Source: Symbiodinium sp. CCMP2592
Lineage: Eukaryota; Sar; Dinophyceae; Suessiales; Symbiodiniaceae
NCBI GenBank assembly: GCA_905221615.1
Contig: CAJNDT010003402.1
Coordinates: forward strand, 424,750-488,749
Direction: 5' to 3'
DNA length: 64,000 nt
In this document: positions 5,202 to 42,949 of the stretch, piece by piece
Numbering within the stretch: the stretch's first letter is position 1
Layout: the number at the start of each line of letters is the position of its first letter
Made by a program: the position numbers and the translations under genes
The notes under the pieces: model-generated
Told to the model about the DNA's origin: nothing
The model's input: only the letters and a program-made list of their open reading frames with translations
The model's database searches: none

Positions 5202-5422
5202 GGCAGCCCTGAAAATTATTTATGGATCCGGGCTGTTTTTGTGCATCCATGTGAATGCAACACCAAGCAGCAATCACTCACTCTTTTTCTCCCGCGATCA
5301 TGTGGAATGTGAACAGTGGTAACAAGAAAAATGCGACACTGACACTGGCAGCTCAGACGATGGTGGCCTGCAGGAGCAGGCAGAAACCAAAATCTGGCGT
5401 GACACTCTGACAATGGAAGAAT

Positions 5423-8400
5423 TTGACACTCATTCTGTGTGGCCAGTACAATAACACACCCAATGCGCACCCCTCCATGCCTGCTCAAAGTTGACACTGA
5501 TTTCCAGCTGGTAGGCCTGACATAATAGAAACACGTGACACTCATTCTGTGTGGCCAGTACAATAACGCACCCAAGACGCACCCCTCCATGCCTGCTCCA
5601 AGTTGACACTGATCTCCAAGACGAAGGCCTGCCATAGTGGATGCATTTGACACTCATTCTGTGTGGCCAGTACAATAACGCACCCAATACGCACCCCTGC
5701 CTGCCTTGTCACAGTTGACACTGATCTCCAGCTGGTAGGTGTGTCAACTTTGAGCACGCATGGAGGGGGCCTATTGGGTCCCAACACACACCCTCCATGC
5801 CTGCTCAAAGTTGACACTGATGTCCAGCTGGTAAGCCTGACATTAAGGAGCAATTGACCGGCCAGGACAATAACGCACCCAATACGCAAACCTGCCTGCC
5901 TTCTCCAAGTTGACACTGATGTCCAGGAGGAGGACCTGACTTTAATGGATTGACACTCATCGACATCCACTGCACCGTAACTGCTTGTCGACATGGTGAC
6001 ACTTGGCAGAGGAATCATCAACCAAAACAGAGTAGCACCAGCCAGGCGGCGAGCGGCTCATTCAGACCTTGACTCTTCGAGCAGCTTGACGGTCTGTCAA
6101 ACTGCTCGAGGAGTCAAGGTCTGAGAGAGCCAGCTGACACTTCATTCCATGACAAAGCAGACGGTAAGCCTGACATAACGGAATCACTTGACACTCGTTC
6201 TGTGTGGCCAGTACACTAACGCACCGAACACGCACCCCTCCATCCGTGCCTTCTCTAAGTTGACACTGATGCCCAGGAGGAAGACCTGACTTTAGTGAAC
6301 TGTCGTCGACATGGTGACACTTGGCAAACTTAAAGGTATCATCAACCAAAACAGAGTCATAGCACCAGCCATGCGGCGAGCGGCTCATTCAGACCTTGAC
6401 CACTCGAGCAGCTGGACGGTCTGTCCAACTGCTCGACGAGTCAAGGTCTGAGCGAGCCAGCTGACACTTCATTCCATGACAAAGCGAATGGTAAGCCTGA
6501 CATAATGGAAACATGTGACAATCATTCTGTGTGGCCAGTACAATAACGCACCCAATTCGCACCCCTCCATGCCTGCTCAAAGTTGACACTGATTTCCACC
6601 TGATAGGCCTGACATAATGGAAGCATGTGACACTCGTCATTCTGTGTGGCCAGTACAATAACGCACCCAATTCGCACCCCTCCATGCCTGCTCCAAGTTG
6701 ACACTGATTTCCAGCTGGTAGGCCTGACATAATGGAAGCATGTGACACTCATTCTGTGTGGCCAGTACAATAACACACCCAATGCGCACCCCTCCATGCC
6801 TGCTCAAAGTTGACACTGATTTCCAGCTGGTAGGCCTGACATAATAGAAACACGTGACACTCATTCTGTGTGGCCAGTACAATAACGCACCCAAGACGCA
6901 CCCCTCCATGCCTGCTCCAAGTTGACACTGATCTCCAAGACGAAGGCCTGCCATAGTGGATGCATTTGACACTCATTCTGTGTGGCCAGTACAATAACGC
7001 ACCCAATACGCACCCCTGCCTGCCTTGTCACAGTTGACACTGATCTCCAGCTGGTAGGTGTGTCAACTTTGAGCACGCATGGAGGGGGCCTATTGGGTCC
7101 CAACACACACCCTCCATGCCTGCTCAAAGTTGACACTGATGTCCAGCTGGTAAGCCTGACATTAAGGAGCAATTGACCGGCCAGGACAATAACGCACCCA
7201 ATACGCAAACCTGCCTGCCTTCTCCAAGTTGACACTGATGTCCAGGAGGAGGACCTGACTTTAATGGATTGACACTCATCGACATCCACTGCACCGTAAC
7301 TGCTTGTCGACATGGTGACACTTGGCAGAGGAATCATCAACCAAAACAGAGTAGCACCAGCCAGGCGGCGAGCGGCTCATTCAGACCTTGACCACTCGAG
7401 CAGCTGGACGGTCTGTCAAACTGCTCGAGGAGTCAAGGTCTGAGAGAGCCAGCTGACACTTCATTCCATGACAAAGCAGACGGTAAGCCTGACATAACGG
7501 AATCACTTGACACTCGTTCTGTGTGGCCAGTACACTAACGCACCGAACACGCACCCCTCCATCCGTGCCTTCTCTAAGTTGACACTGATGCCCAGGAGGA
7601 AGACCTGACTTTAGTGAACTGTCGTCGACATGGTGACACTTGGCAAACTTAAAGGTATCATCAACCAAAACAGAGTCATAGCACCAGCCAAGCGGCGAGC
7701 GGCTCATTCAGACCTTGACAGCTCGAGCAGCTTAACGGTCTGTCAAACTGCTCGAGCTGTCAAGGTCTGAGCGAGCCAGCTGACACTTCAGCCATGACAA
7801 AGCGAATGGTAAGCCTGACATAATGGAAACATGTGACACTCATTCTGTGTGGCCAGTACAATAACGCACCCAATTCGCACCCCTCCATGCCTGCTCCAAG
7901 TTGACACTGATTTCCACCTGATAGGCCTGACATAATGGAAGCATGTGACACTCGTCATTCTGTGTGGCCAGTACAATAACGCACCCAATTCGCACCCCTC
8001 CATGCCTGCTCCAAGTTGACACTGATTTCCAGCAGGTAGGCCTGACATAATGGAAGCATGTGACACTCATTCTGTGTGGCCAGTACAATAACGCACCCAA
8101 TTCGCACCCCTCCATGCCTGCTCCAAGTTGACACTGATTTCCAGCTGGTAGGCCTGACATAATGGAAGCATGTGACACTCATTCTGTGTGGCCAGTACAA
8201 TAACGCACCCAATTCGCACCCCTCCATGCCTGCTCCAAGTTGACACTGATTTCCAGCTGGTAGGCCTGACAGAATGGAAGCATGTGACACTCATTCTGTG
8301 TGGCCAGTACAATAACGCACCCAAGACGCACCCCTCCATGCCTGCTTCAAGTTGACACTGATTTCCACCTGATAGGCCTGACATAATAGAAGCATGTGAC

Positions 8401-10735
8401 ACTCATTCTGTGTGGCCAGTACAATAACGCACCCAATTCGCACCCCTCCATGCCTGCTCCAAGTTGACACCGATTTCCAGCTGGTAGGCCTGACATAGTG
8501 GACGCATGTGACACTCATTCTGTGTGGCCAGTACAATAACGCACCCAATTCGCACCCCTCCATGCCTGCTCCAAGTTGACACTGATCTCCAGCTGGTAGG
8601 CCTGACAGAATGGAAGCATGTGACACTCATTCTGTGTGGCCAGTACAATAACGCACCCAATTCGCACCCCTCCATGCCTGCTCCAAGTTGACACTGATTT
8701 CCAGCTGGTAGGCCTGACATAATGGAAGCATGTGACACTCATTCTGTGTGGCCAGTACAATAACGCACCCAATTCGCACCCCTCCATGCCTGCTCCAAGT
8801 TGACACTGATTTCCGGCTGGTAGGCTTGACAGAATGGAAGCATGTGACACTCATTCTGTGTGGCCAGTACAATAACGCACCCAAGACGCACCCCTCCATG
8901 CCTGCTCAAAGTTGACACTGATTTCCAGCTGGTGGGCCTGACATAATGAAGCATGTGACACTCATTCTGTGTGGCCAGTACAATAACGCACCCAATTCTG
9001 CACCCACTCCATGCCTGCTCCAAGTTGACACTGATTTCCAGCTGGTAGGCCTGACATAATGGAAGCATGTGACACTCATTCTGTGTGGCCAGTACAATAA
9101 CGCACCCAAGACGCACCCCTCCATGCCTGCTCAAAGTTGACACTGATTTCCACCTGATAGGCCTGACATAATGGAAGCATGTGACACTCATTCTGTGTGG
9201 CCAGTACAGTAACGCCCCCAAGACGCACCCCTCCATGCCTGCTCAAAGTTGACACTGATTTCCAGCTGGTAGGCCTGACATAATGGAAGCATGTGACACT
9301 CATTCTGTGTGGCCAGTACAATAACGCACCCGATTCGCACCCCTCCATGCCTGCTCCAAGTTGACACTGATTTCCACCTGATAGGCCTGACATAATGGAA
9401 GCATGTGACAATCATTCTGTGTGGCCAGTACAATAACGCACCCAATTCGCACCCCTCCATGCCTGCTCCAAGTTGACACTGATTTCCAGCTGGTAGGCCT
9501 GACATAATGGAAGCATGTGACATTCATTCTGTGTGGCCAGTACAATAACGCACCCAATTCGCACCCCTCCATGCCTGCTCCAAGTTGACACTGATTTCCA
9601 GCTGGTAGGCCTGACAGAATGGAAGCATGTGACACTCATTCTGTGTGGCCAGTACAATAACGCACCCAAGACGCACCCCTCCATGCCTGCTTCAAGTTGA
9701 CACTGATTTCCACCTGATAGGCCTGACATAATAGAAGCATGTGACACTCATTCTGTGTGGCCAGTACAATAATGCACCCAATTCGCACCCCTCCATGCCT
9801 GCTCCAAGTTGACACTGATTTCCAGCTGGTAGGCCCGACATAGTGGAAGCATGTGACACTCATTCTGTGTGGCCAGTACAATAACGCATCCAATTCGCAT
9901 CCCTCCATGCCTGCTCCAAGTTGACACTGATTTCCAGCTGGTAGGCCTGACATAATGGAAGCATGTGACACTCATTCTGTGTGGCCAGTACAATAACGCA
10001 CCCAAGTCGCACCCCTCCATGCCTGCTCCAAGTTGACACTGATTTCCAGCTGATAGGCCTGACATAATGGAAGCATGTGACACTCATTCTGTGTGGCCAG
10101 TACAATAACGCACCCAATTCGCACCCCTCCATGCCTGCTCCAAGTTGACACTGATTTCCGGCTGGTAGGCTTGACAGAATGGAAGCATGTGACACTCATT
10201 CTGTGTGGCCAGTACAATAACGCACCCAAGACGCACCCCTCCATGCCTGCTCAAAGTTGACACTGATTTCCAGCTGGTGGGCCTGACATAATTTAATGGA
10301 AGCGTGTGACACTCATTCTGTGTGGCCAGTACAATAACGCACCCAATTCGCACCCCTCCATGCCTGCTCCAAGTTGACACTGATTTCCAGCTGGTAGGCC
10401 TGACATAGTGGAAACATTTGACACTCATTCTGTGTGGCCAGTACAATAACGCACCCAAGACGCACCCCTCCATCCCTGCTCAAAGTTGACACTGATTTCC
10501 ACCTGATAGGCCTGACATAATGGAAGCATGTGACACTCATTCTGTGTGGCCAGTACAATAACGCACCCAAGACGCACCCCTCCATGCCTGCTCCAAGTTG
10601 ACACTGATTTCCAGCTGGTAGGTCTGACACAATGGAAGCGTTTGACACTCATTCTGTGTGGCCAGTACCATAACGCACCCAATGCAAACCCCGTCCAAGC
10701 CTGCTTCAAGTTGACACTGATCTCCAAAAGGTGGG
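5423..10735. repeat. Left terminal tandem array, 112-bp unit
   Basis: About 26 consecutive units of 112 bp are clear from roughly 7830 to 10735, with more diverged units before that. Each unit carries two TGACACT copies 68 and 44 bp apart, plus one TGACATA. A compound block of 1319 bp is duplicated in tandem (about 5423-6741 and 6742-8060, nearly identical). It contains an inverted copy of part of the unit (about 5740-5820) and the strong hairpins listed separately. Because 112 is not a multiple of 3, all three minus frames stay open for three units before a stop, so the many 111-codon ORFs are a by-product of the repeat. Confidence 0.9.
6063..6124. repeat. Hairpin 1 of four related hairpins in the left array
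   Basis: The left arm CAGACCTTGACTC..TCGAGCAG pairs with CTGCTCGA..GAGTCAAGGTCTG around the loop GGTCT. Related hairpins are at 6390-6451, 7382-7443 and 7709-7770. Some arm changes are matched by changes in the partner arm: TGAC/GTCA becomes GGAC/GTCC in the second, and the fourth has AGCTCGAG/CTCGAGCT. Others are not compensated. Confidence 0.7.
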
Positions 10736-11015
10736 CCTGAGAAGGGCAGGCAATGACAGACAGTTAAAAACAAAAGCACATGGCGGAAGCAGGCACTGAC
10801 ACCTGCAGTTTCTTTTCAATTGCCGAATGACGCTGCCTTTGACGGCAAGCTGATTGACTCTGGCGTTTTGCAAAGAATAGCGGACCCCGTTTGACACTGA
10901 ATCATACTATTCGACAATGTCAATGACGATGTGACACTGGGTACTGCCCTGCTGGTACCTGAAACAAAATTCCAGCACGTGACTCTAAAATCGACACGAT
11001 GACACTGACTGACAC
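10736..11015. other. Spacer between left array and first exons
   Basis: Unique sequence with several TGACNCT copies. I see no coding region I can support. Confidence 0.5.
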
Positions 11016-14455: not shown

Positions 14456-16200
14456 TGCCTGACACTGTCCAAATCATGCCAGGTAAGCCACGAAGCAATG
14501 GAGCTTTGACCCTGGCACGGTTAGCGTTCGTGCGGGGTTCGGCAGGGTTTGTTACATGCTCTGTGCCTGTTGCTGCAAATGAATGACTCTGACAATGAAT
14601 CACAGGTGCACTATGTCATGAAGCAGCAGTTCAAACCAAGGACAAAACCCCAGGGATTCCTGCTGAATCTAACATGACACCTGTTGCCTGCCACATGGGG
14701 AAAGACAGAACAGGCCTCGCAACTTCCCCATCGTCTGACACTGACCTCACAGAGAAAGGAGATATAATTGGTGCTGCGTTGTGACACTTTCACCCTGAAT
14801 CATGTCGTCGAAAAGTTAACACCTTCAGCATATTCAGGCTGTGTTCCCAAAGCCGTGCATCAGACACTGAATCTGCATCAGAATGCCGTCTCACAACATG
14901 ACTGACTGAGAAAACTGTTAAACAGAGTGTGCCAGTAACACTGTACTCTTGCATTGGATGCTCCAAGCATACAGGCAATGTTGCTCGACCACGATGGACC
15001 CATCATGTGACATACCCACAAGAGCAAAGGAGCAACTGTTCGAACGTCTGAGGCTGACACATGCTATTGCTTGCCGGCTTTGGCTGCTTTGCAGCTTCAT
15101 CGCCTGCAGTGACTGATGCTCTGAGATACCACTCCGAATGTCCCAGCACACAGGACTGACTCAGCGACAAAGTCAGTGTCATTGTTCGTTAAATACTGTT
15201 TAACTGTGACTAGTGAATTAAATATTCAGATCCCAGCTCCCTTCTGCAGTTGCGACATGACACTCAGCCCCAGGAAACATGGCAAGCACTTCCAAGCTGT
15301 TTGAGGTCACACTCACCCTCTGGAAGCTGAGCCTTCTGCAAGGCCGAGCAATTGGACCATGACACTGACCTGGATCGGACACAGTTGGTGTATGTGTGAG
15401 ACAATGATTACGACCAATAGTGTCATAGCAATAAATTATACTATTATTGTCTGACACTTCACACGTGCCACAACCATTCAACCGGCATGGCCTCGCCCAA
15501 GGTAGGTCGGTGTTCCAGCTGCTCCTTGGTCTGACAGCTTAGAGGCTTAGAGAGACATGGAACGACTCCACATTGAGGAATCTTGGCTGAAACTATTAAT
15601 AAGTGTCCATAACCCTCCCATGTGTCAAAGACCAGTCTCCTTTCACATAAGAGCCATCAACATAAGCAGCAAAAGACAGTCAGTGCCTCAATGACACAGT
15701 GTGCAGCCTCAGAAAATAGTGGCATGCCAATACGAAGGCCCAGGACTCTGAGACTGCTGCTTTGCCCAGCAAACGTAGCAGCACTTCGGAGCCGCAGTAT
15801 GACACTGACACCTCGGAGATACATGGTCAGGAGGCAGTGCTGTGATCTGAGTGTGCAAGGTGACACTACTGGGCAAAATCTCTCCCGAAGCACGCACGAC
15901 AACCACGGTTTAACAATGCCCCTGCACACTCAAAATAAGCAGGTGTCCTTTTTTCCACAATGACACCTGCCATCTCATGTGGGAAGACCACAACGTGACG
16001 TCTTCACGTGACACACCCACACTGGCAAAGTCGGCAATGACTCACTGCAGTCGAGCTGTGACACTAAGCCTTCAAGTCAGCAGTGTGACCACTGACCCTG
16101 ACATCGCTAATCGACATCAAAAGCACGGTGCAGTGCATAACGCTTGCCCCAACCAGACGTTGATCGCCGAAGCTTCGTCCGAGACCGTGACGCTTCATGC
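14456..16200. other. Motif-bearing stretch without a resolvable gene
   Basis: TGACNCT continues at high density. Minus-strand open frames at 14918-15151, 15218-15481 and 15657-15929 are short and low-complexity, and I cannot support any of them as a gene. It may be a mix of diverged exons and untranslated sequence. Confidence 0.4.
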
Positions 16201-17995
16201 CTAGCAGACTTTCTTGACTTCTTGCCGAGCTTCTTCTTGGTCTTCTTCGCAAGCACCCTCCTGACTCTCTTTCTTGAACCCTTCTGATTCGGTAGCGACT
16301 GTGACTCTGCAAAGAGTGGTAGAAGCAAAGCCTTGTCGAAGTTGTCTGGTAACACTGGCCGTCCATTGTTTCGCATGTCCTTGACTCTGAGAAGGCTCAG
16401 ACCCACCAGTGTGACCGCTGCGACGACCTCGATGTGCCTGGGCTGTCGCTGTGTGAGGTGGGGTGGTTTTTATGGCACTACTGATATAGGTTTCGAAACG
16501 ACATTCGCCGAGGCACATGGTGTTGCCTGCAAGGCTTGACAGCTGACTGCTTGTTATCGACACCGGTTCCAGCTGGTCCATTGGGAAACCATGTAGAATC
16601 ATCTTCTCCATAGGGGTAATGACACTCTGGCTTTTGACACTGTACAGCACTGACCCTGGAGTGATGCAAGGGCAGTAGCCATCACAAGCCCAGGCACCGC
16701 GGCCAAGAGACTGTGACACATCCACAACCAAGTCATCCTTGCTGTGACACTGGTATGTCAGCTGCAGTGCGTCTTTCATCCGCGGTGTGAGTCCAGAGTC
16801 ACCACCAGCTATGACTCTGCAAGTGTCCAGTCGGTGCGTTTTTCGAAACACAGCATGCTCACGCTCCCACTCTTGGACAGGTGGCCTTTTCCCTCTGACT
16901 CTAGTCTTGCATGTTGTGGGCTTGGGTTTTTGGCGTCTCTGACACTTCTCTTTCTCTGGATAAAGACTCTGTAGCTCATGATCCTTCCCCAAAAGACGAT
17001 CATGTAGGCTGACACTCAAAGGGCGCTTCATAGAGTTGAAAACTTTGCAACCCAATGATTGAAGCGACTCTACATTGTCTGTGATCAAAAGGTCCTTCCT
17101 CAGTGCCAAAATATAAACTCTTGGACGCCTGACACTATGTCCCAGCATCGTCGGGCAAACGACAAAGTGGAACAGGCGATATGGCCTCAGGCACTGCATC
17201 CTTGACGCTATGTCGGAGATGAACCGCAGGATCCCGACAACGTTCTCGAAAATGGCTAACGCTGGTGTCAAGGCCAGAGTCACTTCCAGCATAGCCTGCA
17301 TTGATGTATTGTAATTCATAAAATTATTATATATTATATCTGCTACTTATTTATAGGCAACAAAAACAATAATTCAATTTAAGCCAATTAAATATCTATA
17401 ATATTGAAACCAAAATGAGATACTCTGCTAAGTAGTGACTATTAATGTGTAATATCAATGTGTCAGCCCATTGCAGGATGCTACACTACAGGGAACAGCT
17501 TACCGAATGACCCTGCCAATGGTGTTACATTACCCGCCCGGCCTTGAAGGGAGCAAAGTCCTGACTCTCGAAAAAGAGACTCCTGTTGTTGAGTCTTGAC
17601 GACGGCTTGCAAGGGAAACCACAGTAATAGCTGTTGACACTGGGCAGTTCACTAGGGTGGCGACTGACCATGTCTTCGAAAACTTGTGGCTGACTCTGGC
17701 CCCGCTGCTTTGACGTCTGCACAATCCAGTCTCGACAATGTGTCATCTTGTCTGAAGCGAACTTGTGAGTGACACTGAGTCCGAGGGCGTGCAGTGCAAA
17801 GATCGGGGCATCAGCCCCACTGCAATCCGTGCCCACATCAAGATGGACGGAGCTGACACTCGCATCTCTCAGACCATGTTCCTGGAGCCAGGAAGTCCTC
17901 GAGGACTGACACTGGCAGAGCATTGGGCGAACCCAGCTGTTGAGACACTGCAATGGTTGCGACTGCGGCTTTCCATGGTCACGAAAGAAAACCAT
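16201..17995 (-). CDS. C5-cytosine DNA methyltransferase, two exons
   Basis: Exon 1 (17995-17534, 154 codons from an ATG) carries motif I as GTDCSGADAPIFAL (about residues 55-68) and motif IV as GFPCKPSS, with the catalytic Cys at residue 129. A phase-0 GT-AG intron (17296-17533, 238 bp, AT-rich) follows, with the GTAATG donor after the codon for Arg154. Exon 2 (17295-16201) opens with the ENV element (ALAIFENVVGILRF). It then has the RRPRVYILALR stretch expected of motif VIII, VDVSQS, an LHGFPMDQ segment and LAGNTMCLG (motifs IX-X). The spliced product is 518 residues, the order is complete and no key residue is missing. It should transfer methyl groups to cytosine-5 in DNA; the target sequence is not deducible. 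The last 70 residues are low-complexity, and another minus frame over 16107-16330 encodes a Lys/Arg-rich tail, so the 3' end may be frameshifted or alternatively spliced. Confidence 0.85.
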
Positions 17996-18000
17996 TCTGT

Positions 18001-18420
18001 CCGACTCTAATTTTCGCTGTCTGACACCGTTGCTAGTTTTGACACTCTGAATGCAATGAGCGGTTTCTCTAGCTGGCTTGCAGTCAACGATGAATATTAC
18101 ATTAGATTATTTAATATGTCTTAAATTTCAATATTAACTAAATTCTTATTAAATTATTATTCTTTAAGTCACCCAAAACAAATAGTTCAGGATTAAGTGT
18201 TCATGATGCAACTGGCATTAATGAATCTGAAATCAATATCCATTTAATTTGTGCTACTTCAGAATACCAACTGCAGCTTCTCAACACAATTAATATAATC
18301 TGTTCATATAGTACTGAATGACCATTAAATCCAACTTGACTCTGCTCTTCGGACGAGCAGCAGAAGCTCACAGGCTGCATGCATGTGGAAAAAAGTCTGC
18401 GTCAGCTGACATGATTCAAT
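18001..18420. other. AT-rich spacer upstream of the methyltransferase
   Basis: 18060-18330 is AT-rich and contains no TGACNCT motif, like the introns. It may hold the promoter or a first intron of the methyltransferase gene. No sites are recognised. Confidence 0.4.
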
Positions 18421-20221
18421 CAATCACTGGCATGATCTTGCATACACATTGAGTCCCCGGCAAAACACCGTGCACACGGATCTGCAAAGACACCTGGCCG
18501 GCCGAAGGCTGATATTGACAGCTGACAAACAGAGTTGAACAAACTGCCAAGTGCGAACCTAAAGAGGGAACTCAGCATGACAACCTGGCACTGGCTGCTG
18601 GCACTTGACACTCAGCAATGATTCGTCTTTTTCGCGCAAGCAAGCATCAAAACTGTGTCATTATGATGCACCACAAATTTGCGTGACGGTGCATCGTGAC
18701 TTGACAATGTAGTCAACTGCAGCGATGACTCTGACTCTGAAACTGACCACCGGCTGCTTTTGCTTCCAAAACTCAGCAGGAATGACNNNNNNNNNNNNNN
18801 NNNNNNNNNNNNNNNNNNNNNNNNNNNNNNNNNNNNNNNNNNNNNNNNNNNNNNNNNNNNNNNNNNNNNNNNNNNNNNNNNNNNNNGATCGCACCCTGCA
18901 ACATGGTAGTGTTGACTCTCTGACCATTGAACTTCACACCTGACTCTTCAAAGCGCTTCAACACAGATGCTTGGCTGCCCTCAGAAGCGATCGCATTGAC
19001 CCTCTTTGCGAAGGTGTGGAAGCTATCCGCCAAAGCACCGACCCTGACTCTCTCTGAGTGCTTCAAGGCCTCTATGATTAACTCTTTCTCATCAAGATTG
19101 AATGCCCGAATCGTGACACTCAAGGCCATTGTGTGGAGCTCCCAGACTCTTGACTCTTCCAGAGGCGGTAGCACAGTGGCCTTTGACTCTTCATCCAAAG
19201 CCTGGCCCATGCTCAAGTACCAAGCGAAAAGCCTGGCTGACCCTGCAATGAGCTGCAACCCTTTAGGCCACACAGGAAGTCGACCGAGATCTTTTGACTC
19301 TGCCAGGAACGGGTCTGAGAAATGCAGCCTGACTCCTGACACTTTCTTGGAGTTGTTGCTGACACTGTGCATCAAGGCAGTCTGAACCTCAATGACCTCT
19401 GACACCGAAGGTTCTTCAAGAAGAAGACGGTTGTGGCCCGGATGACCCTGACCCTGGAGAAACAAGGAAAACGGGTCCAGCCAGTAGATGGATCCACCAG
19501 CTTCATACATCGAGGTTCTTGTGACACTGACACTGCAATTGTCAGGGTTCCACACCTCCTTGTAGTTCGTGACTCTGGCCTTGTCACATGTGATCTCCAA
19601 GGGCGGGATGTCATGCAGCTTCTGGCCATGACTCTGGAGTCGCTCTGGAAGTTGTTGGTGCACCTGACACTGACACTGACATCAATTGTCAAATCAAACT
19701 ACAACATAAAACTGACACTGTCTAGATTTGTCAGACGTCTGCGTATAAAATCCCCTAAGAAACACTGGCAAACTAAATCTGTTGCTAATTTCAGAGCCAA
19801 GCACAAAGCGAATGGCACTCTTCATGAAAATGTACGCTCCAGTCGTCTTTGACTCTTCCTCGTCCGGAAGTGCAGGCATGGGCATGCGAGTTGACACTGG
19901 TGTGCTCTCCTTTGCCTTCAACTTTTCCACAGGAATAACCAAATCGTCACCTGGAGGTGACACTTCTGGCTCTTGCTCAGCCATTTTCACTGTCGGTGAC
20001 GCTGGAGGTGAAGCTGGCTTCTGTGACCCCTGCTGGGGAGTCGCCTGAGGCCTTGGAGGCAGCTGACTCTTGGGCGATTCGGAAGGCTGCACCAAAGGAT
20101 CTTTCTGTTGTGGCACTGACCCTGAAGGCTCTTTCAGTTGCAGCACTGACCCTGAAGGCTCTTTCTGCTCTGGCACTGACCCTGTGTCAGGCTTTTTCGG
20201 GGCCCGTCTTGGCTGCACCAC
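18420..20221 (-). CDS. Unknown protein with proline-rich N-terminal part
   Basis: A frame from about 20221 to 19800 encodes a low-complexity region rich in P, Q, S and E, including three repeats of the type EPSGSVLQLK/EPSGSVPQQK. A short AT-rich stretch (about 19700-19790) follows. A second frame, 19663 to the gap, contains WLDPFSLFLQGQGHPGHNRL, then GLQLIAGSARLFAWYLSMGQ, then helix-rich ELIIEALKHSERVRVGALAD. The coding sequence runs into the 100-N gap, so the C-terminus is not visible; the continuation to 18420 is a guess. No family is recognised. AGNGTCA copies occur in more than one frame. Confidence 0.4.
18787..18886. other. Assembly gap, 100 N
   Basis: Exactly 100 undetermined bases, which is a conventional scaffold-gap size, so the true length is unknown. 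It interrupts a minus-strand open frame. Confidence 0.99.
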
Positions 20222-20421
20222 TTTCGGGCAGGGTTGACCATGGCGGATGACACTGACTCTGTGCTAGTGGCTCGAATGATCCTAGATGGCAAGATCTGCG
20301 ACTCTTTACGTTCGATTCTGGGGTATGCCAATACCTCGATCGTTGGCGCCAACGGCCGACCTAGTGACATGTGCAGAACGCATGAGCCAATACCTCAAAG
20401 AGCTCAGACAAGTGTTGACGC

Positions 20422-20511: not shown

Positions 20512-20599
20512 CCTTTTACAGCGAAGTCTGACCTCTGATGTGCAGCGGGCCTTGGTTCTCTCGACGATGTGACTCTGGATGGGCGTTACCTGAAGCGGG

Positions 20600-21908: not shown

Positions 21909-24900
21909 TTAAGCCTCACAATCGAGATTCGATGAACGGAGCTGTTCCATTTTGACACTGTCATCGACCACAAGAAGATTTGCCTTCCTGACCTCTGCAA
22001 AGTCGACCTTGGCCAATTCTCGAGGACGCTTGTATGTGACGATGGAGGGAATGTCACTGACACCGTCTTTGGTCAAGTCCAGAACCAAATCGTTGTCTCC
22101 AAACTGTGGCACTGTAACATGACACTGTCCAGAATATTGCTTCATGACACTGCCTCTCCGTAGCGGTGGAAGACTTGGCTTGATTCTGAGCATATTTCTC
22201 TGACGCTCCACCTGGCTGTTCTGCTCTCGGAGGACAGTGACTCTGTGGAAGTCCTGCAATGCCTTGTTCCACTTGGGGTTTTTTTCCATCTTGTGACACT
22301 CCTTCCGGTGCACTTCCTTGACACTGAACCCGAAAAATGTTTGTTCAGGGGCCTTGCCCGACACTAAAGTTCGGATTCCTGCTCTCTGACTCTGCTGCAG
22401 TGCAGCGAAGGTCCCTTTCTTCTTGACTCTGACAGTGCCCTTGTCAGCTCTCTGCTTGTAGCTTCGAAAGCGCCTGCCATGACGCTGAAGCCACAGGTCA
22501 GCACAATCGCGTGTAAACTGTGTGAACGACAAGGTCTTTGACTCTGACACATCGGCTTCGTTCACACTGTACCCAGGGACATGAATGGGGGTGGCCACCT
22601 CTGACTCTTCCTTGGGCCCATCCAATCGAAGTTCAAGCAGGTCTGACACAGTAATGCCATCCAAGTCAAGTGGACCCTTTGACACTTGCAGGAAATTGCG
22701 CAGCAGACTCAAATCTCTCTCCACACAACATTCCCCGTCCAAGATGGACAGGTAAAATGACACTATCTGAGGGAGTGCATCTGACAATGTCAAATGACGA
22801 CTGCCTTGCAGTGCAGTGCCAATCCCAAGGACCCTGGCCCAGGCAGGTCTGTTGTCGTGCTGTTTCGCTGCTTTTGACACTGTGCTAGGATCTGACACCA
22901 ACTCTGACATGACTCCTTCGAACTGCTGAAAAGCATCTGAACTGCTGACATTGACAGCTCTTGACCTGAATCTGGAATCCAGCGCATCAAGAATAACTCA
23001 TGACTGTAAGCTTTAATAATCAAAGTTTTGGATGACACAAAAAACGGACTAAGCCGATCCAAGGTACAGCTTTTTCAAGCGAATGCGAGCCATCTGCAGA
23101 AGTTGCTGCCACGTATCTGACTCTCCACGATCCAAAGCTCGCTTGGCTTTGTCCCATGACACTAAGTCGAAGACTGTAAACACCATGTGCAGGTCACCAG
23201 TGTGGTGGTCGGCATTGACTCTGGCAATGCAGGCATCAGCAGCAGCGGAAACCGACTGCATGACATCTTGACACTGTTTCTTGGACAAAGGTCCCCACAA
23301 ATGGTGCAGCTTTCCAGAATAGCTTACAGCTGACGCTTTCATGGCATTCTGCACAGCCAACAAAGACCATGTGGTTTCATCTGACCCTGTTGCTGAAGCT
23401 GGAAGATCTGCGAGCACGTGGCCTTCTATGAAAAGCTTTGTGACCCTGTGGACAAAGTCGTCTTTCTCCGCTTGACACTTGCTGATGTCGTGGTCGGCAA
23501 CGTCACAGAAACGAATGACCCTGAGGAGTTCACAGTGGAAGTCGGCAGACACTCCTGCTGTCAAGACGTGCTTCGCTGTCATTTGCTCAAGGAGTTGCTG
23601 ACAACTCCATCGCATATTTGGTGTAAGCCTGACATCTGACGCTTGGTAGGCGAGAAGCAGAGCAATCGGCTCCAGGAGCCGAACATATTGACTCTGTGGC
23701 TTAGCACAGCTGTCGAAACGCTGTTTGGCAAAGCTCAGGGTGCTGATTGCACGCTTGACACTCTCACTGTGCGAAGAGTTAGGCTGACACTCAGCCTGGA
23801 TCGCTCGGAACTTGAGCTTCCACTGTTCCGAGTTTTGCAAACTCGGAATGACTCTGCAGAAGTGCTGCCAAAACTCTGCAAACTGACTCTCCATTGTCAG
23901 TGGCAAGCCAGCACGTCTGAACTGATGTGCCCGGTCTATGACGCTGATCTGGAGGTTCGGCAGGCAAGTTGCTCGCATGACACTCATGCTTTTCTTCATA
24001 CATTTCGCTCCGTCTGTCGAGCAGGATCTGACACTCGAGAGGAAGTGTGTCACCAAGTCAAGGTCGACTGACTCTTCATCAAGCACCACGGAAAGCTTCT
24101 CAATGCCAACCTTGACACTGTCAGAAACCTTCACACTGTAGTCTTCTTCCAGATCTTGCAAATCCGTCTCTGACGCTTTTCCATGGTGTGTGAGAACTGC
24201 AAGGACGCCGGTGAAGACAGGGCAGTGTGACTCTTCGGATTCGTCTTCAGAGGACTTCCTCTCGCCAGCAACTGCTCTGAAGCGAATGACCCTGAAGGGG
24301 GCCTTGTCATCCAACGACACTGAAATAAACTTTGCTGACCGAATGACACTTCGCTTTCGCCTGCGAGTGACTTCTGTCATGATCTGAACCATCTGCTTGT
24401 ACATTTTTCGCGAGCACTGACCCTGGCGAAGTCCGATGAACGACTCGGTCCGGGACTGACACTCTGCTTTCAAGAATGACACTGGGCTCTGCACCATCCT
24501 CCACGCACGAAGCCAGTCTGCCAACTCAGGAACATGACCCTTCAGTCGATCCTCGTCCTCTCGAGGCATCATGACGCTGCAACTGAGAGGCTCATCCGGA
24601 CACTGCATCATATGCACTGCTCGTCGGTGCATCTGACACTGCGAGTGCTGGTACAACGCTGACGCTTGCATCTGACTCAGTGCTCGGATCTCATATCTGG
24701 CCCATTTGGAATCCCAGCGATGACTCTTCCTGCTGCCTGTGACCTTGACACTGAGAGAGCGGGCTCGAAGGGCTGCGCAGGCAGCACATCCGAGACCCCA
24801 TGGCCCTCCCATTTTCTTGGGTCTTTCTTGGAGCCATGTGACTCTGACCCTCTTGCCAGCACGTGTCTGCAGAAAAGAGCCGTGACTCTGACACCATTTG

Positions 24901-25376
24901 ACTCTGAATCTCTGGAACCAACATCTTGGACAGGACTGATCGAACTCGTCATGACACTTGCCATTGCTTTCTGTCTGGACGCTGACACTGGTGTTGTTGA
25001 AAGCTGTCATCTTTCTCTTGGTGCCATGTGCAGATGCCAGCTTCTGACTCTTGGGTCTGTCCGAGCAGGAAACTTGAAGTGCTGACTCTGCAGCTGCAGC
25101 AGAACGAGTTCTGACCATGGAAGTTGACACTTTGCCAGACGAAGGGAACACCTTGTTGTCGTAACACTTCTGCAGTTTGGAGGGTGCACAATGCGCACGT
25201 CTCAGCATGGCAGCGATGACTCTGACTCTGCTGTTTGTTCTGAAATGCTCAGTTGCTGACACTTCTTGGAGACACACTGTTTCCAACCCACACCGTGTGC
25301 TATCTGAAGAATCCTTTGAATGTTGACTTTGACTGACCTGAAGCACTGAGAATCCAAATAACTTCAACGGATCCAA
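21909..25376 (-). CDS. Transposase-like protein (hAT-like RNase H fold), two exons
   Basis: The first open block (25376-23049, 775 codons, no ATG needed at its left edge) has a Cys-rich N-terminal part (CPRCW near residue 147, GLGCAACAA near 198). An RNase H-like core follows: ISVSLDDKAPFRVIRFR (Asp356/357), CSTDGAKC (Asp455) and VIDRAHQF (Asp481, His484). The second block starts upstream of the ATG at 22910; its frame is open back to about 22996, and it includes YLSILDGECCVERDLSLLRN. This resembles the C-terminal ER.S dimerisation block of hAT transposases, with a candidate last acidic residue. From memory, this protein type is abundant in dinoflagellate predictions; hAT affinity is my inference. 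It probably mobilises the host element. The true start lies in an upstream exon or at an unseen codon. Confidence 0.6.
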
Positions 25377-25399
25377 AATTACCTACTGTTGCGGACGGC

Positions 25400-26650
25400 T
25401 CATTGTCGTATTTTGGCCAAGTGCCTCCCATTAATGTGTTCAAGGCAGAATTTTGGATCGCGAGACAGGACTTACTCATTATGACATCTCCGCAGCAGCA
25501 AATTGCTAAGGCGTCTCTGCTTCCCCGCTTGTATTCAATTGGAGCAAACCTGGCAGAGGACTATAAATCACAACAGTGCAACCGTGCCAAGAAGGCCTGC
25601 TGACCCGCTGGGCATCCGCCGGCGAAAGGGCTTCAACACCTGAGGCAGTTGGCTGCTCCATGCTATTATTATTAAGGGACTCAAGAATGACAATTTGAAT
25701 CAGAATTGCTTGACACTGAAATCCTACTTGTCAAGTCTCAAAGACCCGAAACCCCTCAGCTGTCGAAAATCTCCTGGCCCAATGACACTGGGTGTAGATA
25801 GAAACAAGCGGCAGCACACCAACGCTCGCAGTGCACACCCACACACAGACTGAGCAAGTGGCACTGTGCGGTCAGGCTGACCACCTGTGACTAAAATATT
25901 AGTGTGCGACTTGGGTGCGAGTTGGGTTTTTGCAAAAAACAACACAGTGATCTGACACTTGACCATGGGTAATACTTATACTGACTGTTTCGAAGATCTG
26001 AGGAACCGAGGGGATGGGACATGAACATGACCTGCCACTTGCCTGCGATAGATGCCCTGCTAGGCTTCGATTGGTACATGCATGCTGCCATGGGGCTCAA
26101 GTAAGCCAACATATGCCACTGAGTTTGACTCTATTTGTTATTGCTGCTGGAATCTAAGGCTTGAGGCTGAAGACAACAAAGACAACTAGTAGTTGTGAGC
26201 TCTGGCAGCGAATGGGACTTGCCGCACAAAGTGCTACTTAGTGGAATTATTGGAAGATTAACTACTAGCGGCGAATGGGACATGCCGCGAACAGGAAAGG
26301 ACTGTGGCTCTCAATTCGGTTTTACACAGGGAAAACTCAGCACAGGGCTATCCACACCAGGTGCTCCAGCTCGCTACCTGGCAAAAGCTTGCAGGCACCC
26401 AGCCAAATGGGGCAAGATAAGACTCTGAATTTCCTGAAACCAGCAACGGCTCCTGAATTATTATATATCTTATTTAATTTAGTGCAGTCAGACGGGGCTC
26501 TGGCTGACTCATCACTCATCCACAGGCAGATCACCACAGGCCTGTCACAGCAGTGGGTCATGTTTGGCAATGAAATGCTGGCTGATCTTAAATTGATATG
26601 ACTGTCGTGACGATGGCAGCATTCAGAGCACTGACTGTTTTGACGCTTAC
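25400..26650. other. Spacer with sparse motifs
   Basis: Between the transposase-like and zinc-ribbon genes. TGACNCT is rarer here than in the exons. Copies of the GCGAATGGGAC(T/A)TGCCGC motif typical of the right array occur at about 26208-26232 and 26267-26290. No gene is supported. Confidence 0.5.
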
Positions 26651-26719
26651 TCTGGCAGTCCATCTTGTCTACTAAAAGGGCACCCCATAGCCCAGTGACA
26701 CTCACCTGCTCTCATGTTC

Positions 26720-27351
26720 TTCACGGTCGTGAGCTTTTTTTCGACTGACACTGCCAAATATTTCTTGCGGCACTCGTCTTCGTCTTTGACACTGGAACAG
26801 GCAAACGAGAATGAGACGAGGCTTCTGACACATCCTGGCAGCTGCTGTCCATGACGCTCAAATCGTTCCACGATTGACATTGCTGAAGCGATGACACTAT
26901 AGGCAACAGCATCACCGAATAAGCTTTTCAGCTCAGCAATCTGACTCTCGAGCCTCAACCGCATTGTCTGGTAAATCCCAGTCGTCGCTACTGGGTGTTC
27001 TGACACTGCAGAGGAGGCGCCATCATGACACTGACTTTCAGAAGAGTGTGCTGGCAAAGGCTCTGACGCTGTCCCACATCGAGGTTCACTCTGCATCCGG
27101 GATGTGGTTCTCCCACAAGGTGTCTTTGCTGACTCTGTCATTGCTGTAGCAGACGGACCAGACCATTGATATTTGACACTGCCCTCAGGCTTGGCATGAC
27201 CCTCCTGGTCAACTGACACTTTGCGACGCAGTCTACGGCATGGCTTCTTCTTGTGTCGCCCGCGATGACTACTGCGGCAGCCTTCACAGTAGTTATTCGG
27301 CTTGCGCCGAAACGTTCTGGCACCGCACAAACGGCAGGCAAACCCAGCCAT
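26720..27351 (-). CDS. Zinc-ribbon, basic protein (first exon)
   Basis: The ATG at 27351 starts MAGFACRLCGARTFRRKPNN, followed by CEGCRSSHRGRHKKKPCRRL. The CxxC...CxxC spacing and the Arg/Lys-rich linker indicate a small zinc-binding, nucleic-acid-binding N-terminus. The middle is low-complexity, and the end has a helical region (YQTMRLRLESQIAELKSLFG). The exon ends at a GTGAGT donor at about 26720. The 3' exons were not identified. It could be a DNA-binding accessory protein of the element; no family is recognised. Confidence 0.5.
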
Positions 27352-27698
27352 GACTCTGGCTCTGTAAAGCAATGATTTCTTATTATCTGAACTTCTCGAA
27401 ACTGACACTACTGTAATACGACGACTAAGGTACTGACTGGTGACTAGTCATTGAACTTAACTTTGATTGTCTGGCTGTCATTGCACTATGAACACAGTAG
27501 CAATACAATGAGATTTAACAGTTGACCCGATGTGGTTGTTCTGAGCAACTTCCTGTGTTGTCGTCGTTCTGCGAGCAGGTTTTGCTGACTCTGCTAACGG
27601 CCTTCATTGATTGACTGAGCAAAATGACACTGAAAGTGCTGAATGACATGACCACTGGCACAGGACAACACTCGCAGGCCCCGCCTCAGGTCTTGCTC

Positions 27699-28476: not shown

Positions 28477-30251
28477 CTACTGCGTTGACGCTGCGTCTTC
28501 CTGCAGCATTTCTAGGTCTTGTATGGCTCTGAACCTTGCCCAGCTGTCGTACCGGCCATATGGCTTTTGCCATTTGGCCTGTAACGCTTGTGTCCTTGGC
28601 TGCAAGCCGGTGCAAATGACACTCTCACTGGATCTGCCACTGTATGTAAGCATGACACTGACTAACACTCGAGATTGGCATGATGTTTTTGCAAACCAAG
28701 CAGCATAATCAGACCTGCACGTACATGACCCTTGCGGCCAAACGCCAGAAGATCCCTGACGCTGTTTTTGGTCTCCTCGGAGAAGGCGATGTCATCCATC
28801 ATCTCGTCCCTGAGCCAAGAATCAGACAGAAAGGCAATGACTCTGGAATCCACATGACAGGAAAATATGCAGCTAGGCCACATGACACTGCGGAAGTCGG
28901 TTTCAGTGCGTCTTGACACTGGGTTCGGCCGTGGGAGACGTGGGTAGTCCACGTCTCTTGGGCCCAGACCACGGCCAGCCCCTTTTGGTCGCTGACCCTT
29001 TCCGGCTTGGTTCGGATCGGCCTGGGTCGATGACGCTGCTGCAGCGGCCTGGGACGGGGTAGCTGGCTGACGCTGACGGCTGGGGTAGTTGAAGTCAGTA
29101 TTGACACTGTCTTCCCACTCGTGTCCCAGGTGTTGCGGGTCGTTCCTGGGAAAGGATGACGCTTCCCACCAGCGGTTCCATTGCTGATTCCTCGGGGAGC
29201 GCCTGCTCCAGTCGTCCTGACCCTGCTGCGTCTGCTGCTGTGAGTTGTTCTGACTCTGCTGCTGCTGATGCCAGCCCCAACCATTGCCTTGACCCTGACC
29301 CCAATTCTGCCATTGCTCCTGACCCTGGGCTCGATTTCGCCTGTTGGAGCCTGATCGGTTGCGACCCCGACCCTGTTGGCCGTGATTCCAAATCTGGTCT
29401 TGCTGACCCTGACCCTGGTTCCAGTAGTAGTTGTTGGCGTTGGGGTCATAGTAGTTGGTATTGGCATCAGCTTGACCCTGGGGCTGCTGCGGCTGCTGCG
29501 GCTGTGGCTGGTCTTGCCGCTGTTGACCCTGTGCCTGCTGCGGCTGTGGCTGTTGCTGGTCTTGCTGCTGTGGCAGGCTGCTCTGATCCTGACGCTGCTG
29601 CTGGCTTGGCGGCCATCGGTCCGCACCCCAGTCGCCCTGCGGTACCTGACTCTCAGACGGCTCGTCCTGCGGCTCCTCCGTTGGCTCGTCCTGTGCTGGA
29701 TCGGTGGGGGCTTGACTCTGGTCGGCAGGTGCTTCAGTCTCCCGACTCTGCTCCTCGGAGGGTTGGTCACTGGTGGCAGCTTGACCGTGACCCTGGTCCT
29801 CATGGGTCAAGTCAACGGTCTCAGCCTGCTGTTGACCCTCGGGTGGACTCTCGGGCTGCTGTGGACTCTGGGGCTGCTGTTCAGTCTGACTCTGCTGCGG
29901 TGCTTCCCACAAACCCGGGGGTGCTTCAGTCTGACTCTGCGGCGGTGCATCCCACAAACCCGGTGCAGACTCCGGCTCCTCAGTGACGCTGATCCACTGA
30001 GCACTGTTGGCCATGGAGTCGGGAACCGGAACCTCCCTTTGGCTGACATATCCCCAGTGACTACTCTGAGTCATGTCTTGGATCGTCTCATGATGACTCT
30101 GGGGCGGGTAGTGCTGCTGGGTCGCTGACGCATGACTCTGGGTCTGGGAGGCCTGGTAGGTCCGGTGCTGGGTCCCTGACGCTGCGTCTGGAGGTCTCAC
30201 CGAGCTGACACTGTCCCCCTGGATCTCCAAGGAGCTGACCGTCTGCCCCAT
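28477..30251 (-). CDS. Q-rich low-complexity protein
   Basis: The ATG at 30251 begins MGQTVSSLEIQG, which fits an N-myristoylation signal (Gly2, Ser6). About 350 residues rich in Q, P, G, N and S follow; many QSQ and QGQ triplets are encoded by copies of the AGNGTCA motif. The C-terminal 80 residues are ordered-looking: DSWLRDEMMDDIAFSEETKN, then LLAFGRKGHVRAGLIMLL. That frame stops at 28662. An overlapping frame continues 28668-28477 with AKWQKPYGRYDSWARFRAIQ and stops, so an intron or a frameshift joins them. The role is unknown. It could be a structural or scaffold protein, or simply a prion-like IDR shaped by the motif. Its plus-strand shadow is leucine-rich and should be ignored. Confidence 0.5.
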
Positions 30252-33130: not shown

Positions 33131-36100
33131 CTGCTACTTAGGCAGCGTATGGTTCTTGCCGCATGACTCTCAAATACCACTCTCAAGCCATTGGCCATGA
33201 CACTGCCACGGCGAATTTGTCATGCCGCAACACCGTAACACTGCACCCTCAGGCGACAACCTTGACTCTGCAATCGCTCAGCGTCCTGCCATCGCCTGAC
33301 ACTGGAAGGTCTGGCCTCAGTGATGCAATCTGACACATGACACTGGCAAAAAACTGCTCTTGCAAGTCACTGCTATGACACCCTGCCGACATACCTATGG
33401 CATGTGACTCTAGCAGATTTTTAAAGTCAGCACCTTGAATCAGAACATGACTCTCTTCCTAGCTCTGGTTCATGCCGCATGACTCTCAGATGCTACCCTC
33501 AGACCCTGACACTGCTAGCGGCGAATGGGTCATGCCGCAACCAAATGACACTACACTCTGAAGCGATGACCCTGACTGCAATCGCCCAATGTCCTGCCAT
33601 CGCTTGACACTGGAAGGTCGGGCCTCGGTGATGCAATGTGATATATTATGTGACACTGACAAAAACTGCTCTTGCAAGTCACTGCCATGACACTCTGCCG
33701 ACCTACCTATGGCATCTGACTCTAGCAGATAGATGATAAGAACATGACTCTCATCCTAGCTCTCGGCGGCGAATGGTCCATGCCGCATGACTCTTTTAGA
33801 TGCTACCCTCAGACCATGACACTGCTAGCGGCGAATGGGTCATGCCGCAACAACATGACACTACACCCTGGATGCCTCTGTGCTCTCAGGCGCTGACCCT
33901 GACTGCAATCGCTCGGTGTCCTGCCATCGCTTGACACTGGAAGGTCTGGCCTCAGTGATGCAATGTGATACATGTGACACTCACAAAACTGCTCTTGCAA
34001 GGCACTGCTATGACACTCTGCCGGCCTACCTATGGCATGTGACTCTAGCAGATTAATAGACGATAATAATTTAATTGACAATATGACTCTCATCCTAGCT
34101 CTCGGCAGCGAATGGTCCATGCCGCATGACTCTCTCTTAGATGCTACACTCAAACCCTGACACTGCTAGCGGCGAATGGGTCATGCCGCAACAAAATGAC
34201 ACTGCACTCTGAAGCGATGATGACCCTGACTGCAATCGCCCAGTGCCCTGCCATCGCTTGACACTGGAAGGTCGGGCCTCGGTGATGCAATGTGATACAT
34301 GTGACACTGATAATACAACTCTTGCAAGTCAGTGCTATGACACTCAGCCGACCTACCTATGGCATCTGACTCTAGCAGATAATAATAGACGATAAGAACA
34401 TGACTCTCATCCTAGCTCTCGGCGGCGAATGGTCCATGCCGCATGACTCTCTTAGATTTTGCCCTCAAACCATGACACTGCTAGCGGCGAATTCGGTCAT
34501 GCCGCAACAACATGACACTACACCCTGGATGCCTCTGTGCTCTCAGGCGCTGACCCTGACTGCAATCGCTCGGTGTCCTGCCATCGCTTGACACTGGAAG
34601 GTCTGGCCTCAGTGATGCAATGTGATACATGTGACACTCACAAAACTGCTCTTGCAAGTCACTGCTATGACACTCTGCCGGCCTACCTATGGCACGTGAC
34701 TCTAGCAGATTAATAGACGATAATTGAACAATATGACTCTCATCCTAGCTCTCGGCAGCGAATGGTCCATGCCGCATGACTCTCTCTTAGGTGCTACACT
34801 CAAACCCTGACACTGCTAGCGGCGAATGGGTCATGCCGCAACCAAATGACACTACACTCTGAAGCGATGACCCTGACTGCAATCGCCCAATGTCCTGCCA
34901 TCGCTTGACACTGGAAGGTCGGGCCTCGGTGATGCAATGTGATATATTATGTGACACTGACAAAAACTGCTCTTGCAAGTCACTGCCATGACACTCTGCC
35001 GACCTACCTATGGCATCTGACTCTAGCAGATAGATGATAAGAACATGACTCTCATCCTAGCTCTCGGCGGCGAATGGTCCATGCCGCATGACTCTTTTAG
35101 ATGCTACCCTCAGACCATGACACTGCTAGCGGCGAATGGGTCATGCCGCAACAACATGACACTACACCCTGGATGCCTCTGTGCTCTCAGGCGCTGACCC
35201 TGACTGCAATCGCTCGGTGTCCTGCCATCGCTTGACACTGGAAGGTCTGGCCTCAGTGATGCAATGTGATACATGTGACACTCACAAAACTGCTCTTGCA
35301 AGGCACTGCTATGACACTCTGCCGGCCTACCTATGGCATGTGACTCTAGCAGATTAATAGACGATAATTTAATTGAACAATATGACTCTCATCCTAGCTC
35401 TCGGCAGCGAATGGTCCATGCCGCATGACTCTCTCTTAGATGCTACACTCAAACCCTGACACTGCTAGCGGCGAATGGGTCATGCCGCAACAAAATGACA
35501 CTGCACTCTGAAGCGATGATGACCCTGACTGCAATCGCCCAGTGCCCTGCCATCGCTTGACACTGGAAGGTCGGGCCTCGGTGATGCAATGTGATACATG
35601 TGACACTGATAATACAACTCTTGCAAGTCAGTGCTATGACACTCAGCCGACCTACCTATGGCATCTGACTCTAGCAGATAATAATAGACGATAAGAACAT
35701 GACTCTCATCCTAGCTCTCGGCGGCGAATGGTCCATGCCGCATGACTCTCTTAGATTTTGCCCTCAAACCATGACACTGCTAGCGGCGAATTCGGTCATG
35801 CCGCAACAACATGACACTACACCCTGGATGCCTCTGTGCTCTCAGGCGCTGACCCTGACTGCAATCGCTCGGTGTCCTGCCATCGCTTGACACTGGAAGG
35901 TCTGGCCTCAGTGATGCAATGTGATACATGTGACACTCACAAAACTGCTCTTGCAAGTCACTGCTATGACACTCTGCCGGCCTACCTATGGCACGTGACT
36001 CTAGCAGATTAATAGACGATAATTGAACAATATGACTCTCATCCTAGCTCTCGGCAGCGAATGGTCCATGCCGCATGACTCTCTCTTAGATGCTACACTC

Positions 36101-37530
36101 AAACCCTGACACTGCTAGCGGCGAATGGGTCATGCCGCAACCAAATGACACTACACTCTGAAGCGATGACCCTGACTGCAATCGCCCAATGTCCTGCCAT
36201 CGCTTGACACTGGAAGGTCGGGCCTCGGTGATGCAATGTGATATATTATGTGACACTGACAAAAACTGCTCTTGCAAGTCACTGCCATGACACTCTGCCG
36301 ACCTACCTATGGCATCTGACTCTAGCAGATAGATGATAAGAACATGACTCTCATCCTAGCTCTCGGCGGCGAATGGTCCATGCCGCATGACTCTTTTAGA
36401 TGCTACCCTCAGACCATGACACTGCTAGCGGCGAATGGGTCATGCCGCAACAACATGACACTACACCCTGGATGCCTCTGTGCTCTCAGGCGCTGACCCT
36501 GACTGCAATCGCTCGGTGTCCTGCCATCGCTTGACACTGGAATGTCTGGCCTCAGTGATGCAATGTGATGCATGTGACACTCACAAACTGCTCTTGCAAG
36601 TCACTGCTGTGACACTCTTGGCATGTGACTCTAGCAGCTTAGATGATGATTGAACATGACTCTCATCCTAGCTCTCGGCGGCGAATGGTCCATGCCGCAT
36701 GACTCTCTCTTAGATGCTACACTCAAACCCTGACACTGCTAGTGGCGAATGGGTCATGCCGCAACAAAATGACACTGCACTCTGAAGCGATGACCCCGAC
36801 TGCTATCGCCCAGTGTCCTGCCATCGCTTGACACTGGAAGGTCGGGCCTCGGTGATGCAATGTGTTTAATTATTATATTAAATTGAAATTATTATTGTTA
36901 TATGTGACACTGACAAAAACTGCTCTTGCAAGTCACTGCTATGACACTCTGCCGACCTACCTATGGCATCATTTATTGAATAATATTTATTTATTATAAT
37001 TAAATTTAAATATTAAACTAAATATGTCATTTAATTATTAAAATAGACGACGACGAAAATAATCATTGAACAACATGACTCTCATCCTAGCTCTCGGCGG
37101 CGAATGGTCCATGCCGCATGACTCTTTCTTAGATTAGATGCTACACTCAAACCCTGACACTGCTAGCGGCGAATGGGTCATGCCGCACAAAATGACACTG
37201 CACTCCGGATGCATCTGCGCTCTCAGGCGATGACCCTGACTGCAATCGCTCAGTGTCCTGCCATCGCTTGACACTGGAAGGTCTGGCCTCGGTGATGCAA
37301 TGTGGTACCTGACACTGACAAACTGCTCTTGCAAGTCACTGCTATGACACTCTGCCGAACTACCTATGGCATCTGACTCTAGCAGACGATAAGAACATGA
37401 CTCTCATCCTAGCTCTCGGCGGCGAATGGTCCATGCCGCATGACTCTCTCTTAGATGCTACCCTCAGACCCTGACCCTGCTAGCGGCGAATGGGTCTTGC
37501 CGCAGCGGCGAATGGGTCTTGCCGCAAACA
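33130..37530. repeat. Right terminal tandem array, about 325-bp unit
   Basis: About 13 units, anchored by TGACTCTCATCCTAGCTCTC at roughly 33745, 34084, 34401, 34734, 35046, 35382, 35699, 36032, 36344, 36656, 37077 and 37399, with a diverged one near 33448. Spacing cycles through about 339, 317, 333 and 312 bp, giving a higher-order unit of about 1300 bp repeated at least twice (33745-35045 and 35046-36343) with near identity. Each monomer has about nine TGACNCT copies, two GCGGCGAATGG..CATGCCGC blocks and an AT-rich variable segment. The frames of 63 or so codons inside it are not credible genes. Confidence 0.9.
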
Positions 37531-37617
37531 CCAGCATGACTCTGCACTCTAGGGCTCCACGCTGACCCTCGAGGTGATCCACGGTGAGGGCGATGTTCAC
37601 ATGAGAAGCTTGCTGAC

Positions 37618-37668
37618 ACTCGAAGCGAATTGTCAGTGGTAAATTACCACTGACAATTCGTTTCGAGT
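37618..37668. repeat. Hairpin near the right end
   Basis: The 25-base arm ACTCGAA.CGAATTGTCAGTG.. (37618-37642) and its inverse (37644-37668) differ at one base, with a one-base centre. The pairing continues outward imperfectly through AAGCT/AGCTT. Confidence 0.85.
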
Positions 37669-37688
37669 GGCAGCTTGAGCTAACGTGG

Positions 37689-37736
37689 CTTATGGTTGTT
37701 TGACACTACAAACTTATGGTTGTTTGACACTACAAA
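37689..37736. repeat. Subterminal 24-bp direct repeat, two copies
   Basis: TTATGGTTGTTTGACACTAC lies inside each of two adjacent 24-bp units. The second contains the last TGACNCT motif (37725-37731), 81 bp from the element end. Confidence 0.85.
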
Positions 37737-42947: not shown

Positions 42948-42949
42948 AT

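Follow-up and report, generated by a model that had tools for sequence, protein, structure and literature searches.

The locus considered here raises the question of why one short word should fill a single strand of a eukaryotic sequence, genes included, in numbers far beyond chance. The window, a stretch of 64,000 nucleotides from Symbiodinium sp. CCMP2592 (contig CAJNDT010003402.1; all positions are those of the window), contains, by direct count, 506 plus-strand and 16 minus-strand copies of the word TGACNCT (AGNGTCA in the complement). The carpet, at 5340-37731 on the plus strand, holds 500 plus and 9 minus copies, at a plus-strand density of 15.4 per kb, or about one word per 65 letters, compared with only 6 plus and 7 minus copies in the remainder of the window, which bears out the contrast between domain and flanks noticed in the preliminary description of this DNA. 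In dinucleotide shuffles of the window (n = 100), the two strands together yield a mean of 44.5 and a maximum of 61 copies, against 522 observed. The carpeted domain is a DNA transposon of Symbiodinium, a coral-symbiont alga, and occupies positions 5188-37811.

The carpet is exact. A blind scan for gapped 7-mers in 10741-33190 places TGACNCT at the top, with 296 plus and 7 minus copies and a neighbour mean of 10.9, and in each of three flanking stretches, the same scan is headed by words that are simple, resemble telomere repeats or show weak enrichment. Single-letter variants of the word are near background, with several in mild excess on the plus strand. Among 294 interior copies, the variable position is A in 43%, T in 32%, C in 15% and G in 10%, and the base that follows the word is G in 58%. 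Recounting reproduces the figures given earlier for 23118-24350 (24 plus and no minus copies; A 9, T 7, C 4 and G 4 times at the variable position; gaps of 29-67 bp, with one of 121), as well as the counts per consensus unit of the two plus-strand non-coding arrays, namely 2 words per 112-bp unit in the left array (5424-10740) and 9 per unit of about 327 bp in the right one (33198-36864), but the 17 copies reported for 21909-22910 come down to 15.

The spacing of the words is more even than random, as had been claimed: inside open reading frames (ORFs), the mean distance is 57 bp with a coefficient of variation of 0.52, the distribution is not Poisson, and its evenness was not reached in any of 2000 exponential simulations. 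Across eleven ORFs, the word occupies all three codon positions (66, 65 and 49 times), and only the glutamine-rich ORF (28662-30251, minus strand; an open frame with no Pfam family) leans strongly to one frame, with 21 of its 31 words. The carpet is neither a repeat effect nor a peptide effect.

Other DNA of the same genome provides a control. The pattern was listed for about the first 100 of 701 places, from which 20 stretches of 10 kb were fetched; because these were picked for holding a pattern match, they are no random sample. Sixteen of the 20 are not copies of the element and average 0.46 words per kb per strand, a value that falls to 0.29 in the 13 that remain when three stretches with clusters are left out. 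The other four stretches, which come from three element copies among the matches listed, are carpeted. Four other loci rich in the word (L122, L123, L137 and L143) have no protein match to the element and look like tandem or simple repeats.

The limits of the transposon are defined by its other copies. The left end is at 5188 in 36 of 39 other genome matches, and of the 11 right-end stretches fetched, all nine that show a junction put it after 37811. Terminal inverted repeats lie at 5188-5207 (plus strand, CTGGG...) and 37792-37811 (minus strand, ...CCCAG), their place being fixed by the other copies, with a near-perfect hairpin by the right end (37612-37674; 28 of 30 pairs, 3-base loop). All six other copies with both flanks read have target duplications of 4 bp (TATG, TTAT, AAAA, TTTA, TGTA and GTAA), with the TATG and TTTA copies sitting in repeats where longer matches occur too. 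These ends and duplications refute the ends guessed from the window alone, which implied a duplication of either 8 bp (AGGAACTT) or 5 bp (AACTT). The window copy itself has no target duplication (its flanks are CTTC and GAAC); half of one insertion may be joined to half of another across its 100-N gap (18787-18886), or a rearrangement may have taken place. The string AGGAACTT is present at both edges of the window copy (5179 and 37810) and again at 38371, and is not the target duplication of the family.

The transposon multiplied recently. Exon 1 of its transposase (23055-25382, minus strand; an open frame recognized by its homologues and by a Hermes-like model, with the 5' limit not fixed and the 3' limit taken from homology and splice reading) has at least 58 matches in its own assembly (1.10 Gb, 5383 contigs). 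Forty-one of these are full-length, and 33 of the 41, the window's own included, are 100% identical. Over 10 kb, interior stretches of three further copies match the window at 99.6-99.9% identity, with 152, 152 and 153 words and, in each case, 2 on the other strand; a left-half stretch of one of these copies is 98.9% identical, with 111 words against 4.

The carpet is also found in diverged relatives. A search of the genome with the protein P0003 yields two further transposase loci, C1180 and C2985, each covered by a 16-kb stretch. Their transposases are 43-46% (C1180) and 35% (C2985) identical to that of the window, and blastn of either 16-kb stretch against the window gives no match at E <= 1e-5. 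In both relatives, the carpet has the same orientation relative to the transposase as in the window, at lower density and with looser spacing (medians of 90 and 101 bp). In C1180, TGACNCT is present in 139 copies and its complement in 8, and the variable position takes all four bases; the corresponding counts in C2985 are 83 and 4, with A at this position in 75 of the 83. The word of C2985 is in fact the eight-letter TGACACTG (70 copies against none), which does not tolerate other bases at positions five and eight, at which the word of the window element is free or loosely fixed. All three elements have, upstream of the transposase, a gene for a zinc-ribbon protein (26647-27408, minus strand, in the window) in which MAG, CxxC, RR-P-N, CxGC and RG-H are invariant among the three. 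The word stops just inside the ends of the transposon, recurs in the three sampled copies and the two relatives, and is rare in the other DNA sampled, in agreement with a word that belongs to a mobile element and is no genome-wide habit.

The signal is dense and exact enough to be seen by eye and even to be deduced from protein sequence. When 12,288 words were scored by the tripeptides that they imply, AGNGTCA ranked first in P0001, P0003 and P0004, second in P0002 and fourth in P0013; it ranked from 31 to 349 in P0007, P0012, P0016, P0017 and P0018, and 2510 or worse in P0005, P0006, P0008-P0010, P0014, P0015, P0019 and P0020. Shuffle tests of two frames agree with this ranking, and the prediction made from P0004 is confirmed by the DNA of C1180, which has an ORF that starts as P0004 does. 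In P0002, a transposase of S. natans, AGNGTGA ranked before AGNGTCA and is perhaps another variant of the word. The protein-only scan of distant homologues for private words of their own produced no clear winner; two of these proteins, P0006 and P0010, have repeated AGQT or AGKPA/AGEAA peptides, which might reflect other words.

The proteins bear the cost of the carpet. Among the places in nine exon stretches where the encoded residues permit the word, it is present at 59 of 68, 58 of 66 and 45 of 106 for the three frames, respectively. Judging from the alignments, it overrides residues that are conserved in distant homologues: where four of these agree, the window protein shares the residue at 27% of motif sites (24 residues) compared with 56% elsewhere (198 residues), and none of 602 circular shifts gave a value as low. 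Gaps relative to homologues are not enriched at motif sites, and therefore the word arose by substitution. In four stretches compared between copies, differences are fewer at the fixed motif bases (3 of 3358) than at other bases (108 of 36,162; p 0.013), and in the right array, the motif columns are more conserved than the others (0.981 versus 0.926; 2 of 312 shifts as high).

The explanation that we favor, with a confidence somewhat short of even, is that the element encodes a sequence-specific nucleic-acid-binding protein for which the carpet is the recognition site, and which would coat or tag the whole element at the DNA level. Among the roles put forward in the preliminary description, a binding array seems to fit best, given the exact core, the graded variable position, the shift of specificity in one relative and the fewer differences at motif bases; a modification site and an RNA-level signal remain as rivals. 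The best candidates for the reader of the word would be the zinc-ribbon protein and the N-terminal finger of the transposase. With sites mostly 30-70 bp apart throughout the genes, spacers and terminal arrays, the protein, once bound, would cover or mark the element along its full length. Such coating would distinguish the element from host DNA, and the likeliest benefit would be shelter from host silencing, perhaps together with the C5 methyltransferase that the element encodes. Selection in favor of numerous, well-spaced sites would write the word into most permissive positions, even against protein conservation, and the reader and the word would drift together, with TGACNCT in two subfamilies and TGACACTG in the third. 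We give about an even chance to the broader proposition that these elements form a group of giant dinoflagellate transposons with a self-recognition code, that is, a one-strand word that runs through the whole element, exons too, at a cost to protein conservation, and whose reader is a protein of the element itself, word and reader having diverged in parallel among the subfamilies.

Several results weigh against a DNA-level coat. The zinc-ribbon protein matches no Pfam family and has no homologues in the protein database, and the 16-kb stretches of the two relatives contain nothing that matches the methyltransferase exon. Among close homologues, 36 of 602 circular shifts were as extreme, a weak effect. 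The three interior copies taken alone show 0 differences in 2730 motif bases versus 24 in 27,250 others, and the test on copy differences is weak because the differences are few and some are shared between copies. The motif columns of the left array show no extra conservation (0.968 versus 0.963). To these must be added the excess of words in ORFs, the poverty of introns, the even spacing and the lack of helical phasing, all of which favor RNA as the bound form. At a matched GC fraction (G plus C) of 0.52-0.58, ORFs, in a set that takes in some without homologues, hold 19.5 words per kb compared with 11.3 in other interior DNA; AT-rich stretches, several of which are introns, hold 3.3 per kb compared with 14.4 elsewhere; and no 10.5-bp phasing was found in the distances between words. 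The corresponding scenario, in which a protein encoded by the element binds AGNGUCA in the transcripts about every 55 nucleotides and thereby protects, exports or licenses them, comes second in our ranking, at roughly one chance in four. It would also suit the placement of all recognized genes of the element on one strand, and the zinc ribbon, although unmatched in Pfam, is reminiscent of RNA-binding fingers of the RanBP2 type. However, both terminal arrays are non-coding and yet hold 15.7 (left) and 25.9 (right) words per kb; these dense arrays, one of them with conserved motif columns, favor DNA, and two introns, read by eye, keep one word each.

The transposase could itself be the reader, with the word being the target of its N-terminal finger that has spread from the subterminal arrays across the whole element and holds the transposase in cis or tunes transposition. 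The hAT-like fold predicted by the model, the near-invariant Cys and His columns in the N-terminus (with no Pfam BED match) and the dense arrays toward both ends are compatible with this scheme, as is the binding of repeated subterminal sites by the BED fingers of Hermes described in the accessible part of the report on that transposase (PMC10368747). The same part, however, judges the putative sites past the first 50 bp to be unneeded for transposition, subterminal sites would not require exons, and the orientation of the word is the same at both ends; we regard this scheme as improbable. The presence of a C5 methyltransferase gene in the element, and the existence of dinoflagellate retroelements with such enzymes (PMC5890265, as far as available), would fit a mark of self-modification, with the word as a one-strand target of this enzyme or of a host modification. 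We consider this quite improbable, given that the relatives keep the carpet while the methyltransferase exon is unmatched in the 16 kb read around each, and that the map of 5-hydroxymethyluracil in Breviolum minutum reports no sequence motif in the part of the paper available (PMC11071213). Least credible is a functionless by-product of mutation or repeat spread. Ordinary tandem repeats can yield many one-strand copies, and the left array is one near-identical repeat, but the interior word is found in all frames, with a mixed variable position and few near-misses, originated by substitution and not with gaps, and is shared with two diverged relatives. The seven densest loci of a scan of IMG/VR (among at least 120 pattern matches listed), examined closely, are tandem repeats, and unlike the interior of the transposon, each has one dominant base at the variable position, and six of the seven have one dominant frame.

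A short word that has built up throughout a genome, genes too, by a recognition-driven process is familiar from the DNA uptake sequences of Neisseria and Pasteurellaceae. These, however, are bacterial, spread over the whole genome and much sparser, whereas the word described here belongs to a eukaryotic transposon, in which it fills one strand with about 15 copies per kb. The closest precedent in the available portions of the relevant papers is the Arabidopsis transposon VANDAL21: its protein VANC21 removes silencing and binds arrays in which a short word of that transposon keeps one orientation (PMC5735166, PMC10398659). Same-orientation arrays of a short word special to the family are thus common to both systems, but VANC sites are non-coding and coding regions lack the word, whereas here the exons are filled, the words take all codon frames of eleven ORFs, and the proteins pay. 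The transposase fold and the target duplication differ as well; the element has no Pfam domain of a Mutator-type transposase or VANC gene, and its transposase gives a Hermes-like model, with no direct comparison to VANC sequences made. Anti-silencing was demonstrated for VANC, and by analogy might apply here. Our searches of the open-access literature brought up neither a comparable carpet nor a transposon with this word. The carpet touches on the questions of how one protein recognizes a long element in its entirety and how a transposon can hide from the host yet remain visible to itself, and it exemplifies selection that acts on a nucleic-acid word with enough force to reshape enzymes. Two word specificities in one genome, together with a conserved candidate reader, make the coevolution of reader and word directly testable, and the carpet offers a marker by which related elements can be sought in dinoflagellates, a group with unusual chromatin.

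The affiliation of the transposase was approached through its modeled structure, in which an RNase H-like catalytic core is predicted to be most like that of Hermes/hAT. The target-site duplication of hAT elements is usually 8 bp, in contrast to the 4 bp seen in all six copies, and the Pfam hAT C-terminal dimerization domain gives no hit in the three minus-strand frames of 10801-33200, with resembling residues seen by eye only. Because neither the duplication nor the Pfam domain agrees, the element is not filed as hAT despite the likeness in fold. The predicted core, the short terminal inverted repeats and the repeated sites toward the ends are shared with hAT elements as portrayed in the available text of the Hermes report (PMC10368747). 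The 4-bp duplication, the lack of a Pfam hAT domain, the size of about 33 kb or more and a word that runs through the whole element are different. A sequence search of solved structures with the transposase profile gave one row at chance level. A viral or bacterial origin was rejected: scans of IMG/VR with the protein alignments A2 and A3, of GTDB genomes with A2 and tblastn of transposase exon 1 against phages found no relative.

The remaining genes of the window copy are on the minus strand. Exon 2 of the transposase (21909-22925) aligns with P0002, P0003, P0005 and P0006, its limits being set by reading, and the last exon (approximately 21246-21663) resembles the C-terminus of P0005 by eye. 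The C5 methyltransferase is represented by a first recognized exon (17534-18106), identified through homologues, and a second (16201-17295) that matches PF00145 with an E-value of 7.4e-4, below the cut-off of the family, and has homologues with PF00145. Next to the N gap lies part of a longer ORF (18887-19681) that is cut by the gap and is 494 amino acids long in the copy C236. The gap probably hides about 2.2 kb that this copy holds, with the remainder of the 494-amino-acid ORF and another ORF of 459 amino acids, neither of which has a Pfam match. C236 also has, at its positions 16300-27500 (L161 and L162), a tandem duplication that matches 15303-22111 of the window.

Outside the transposon, a minus-strand ORF of 3813 amino acids at 48382-59823, by eye resembling a copia-type retrotransposon polyprotein, shows no trace of the carpet. 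Many degenerate telomere-like repeats (TTTAGGG/AAACCCT) occupy the flanks at 1-2000 and 40889-45474, and another copy of the transposon, C2190, is likewise inserted in telomere-like repeats.

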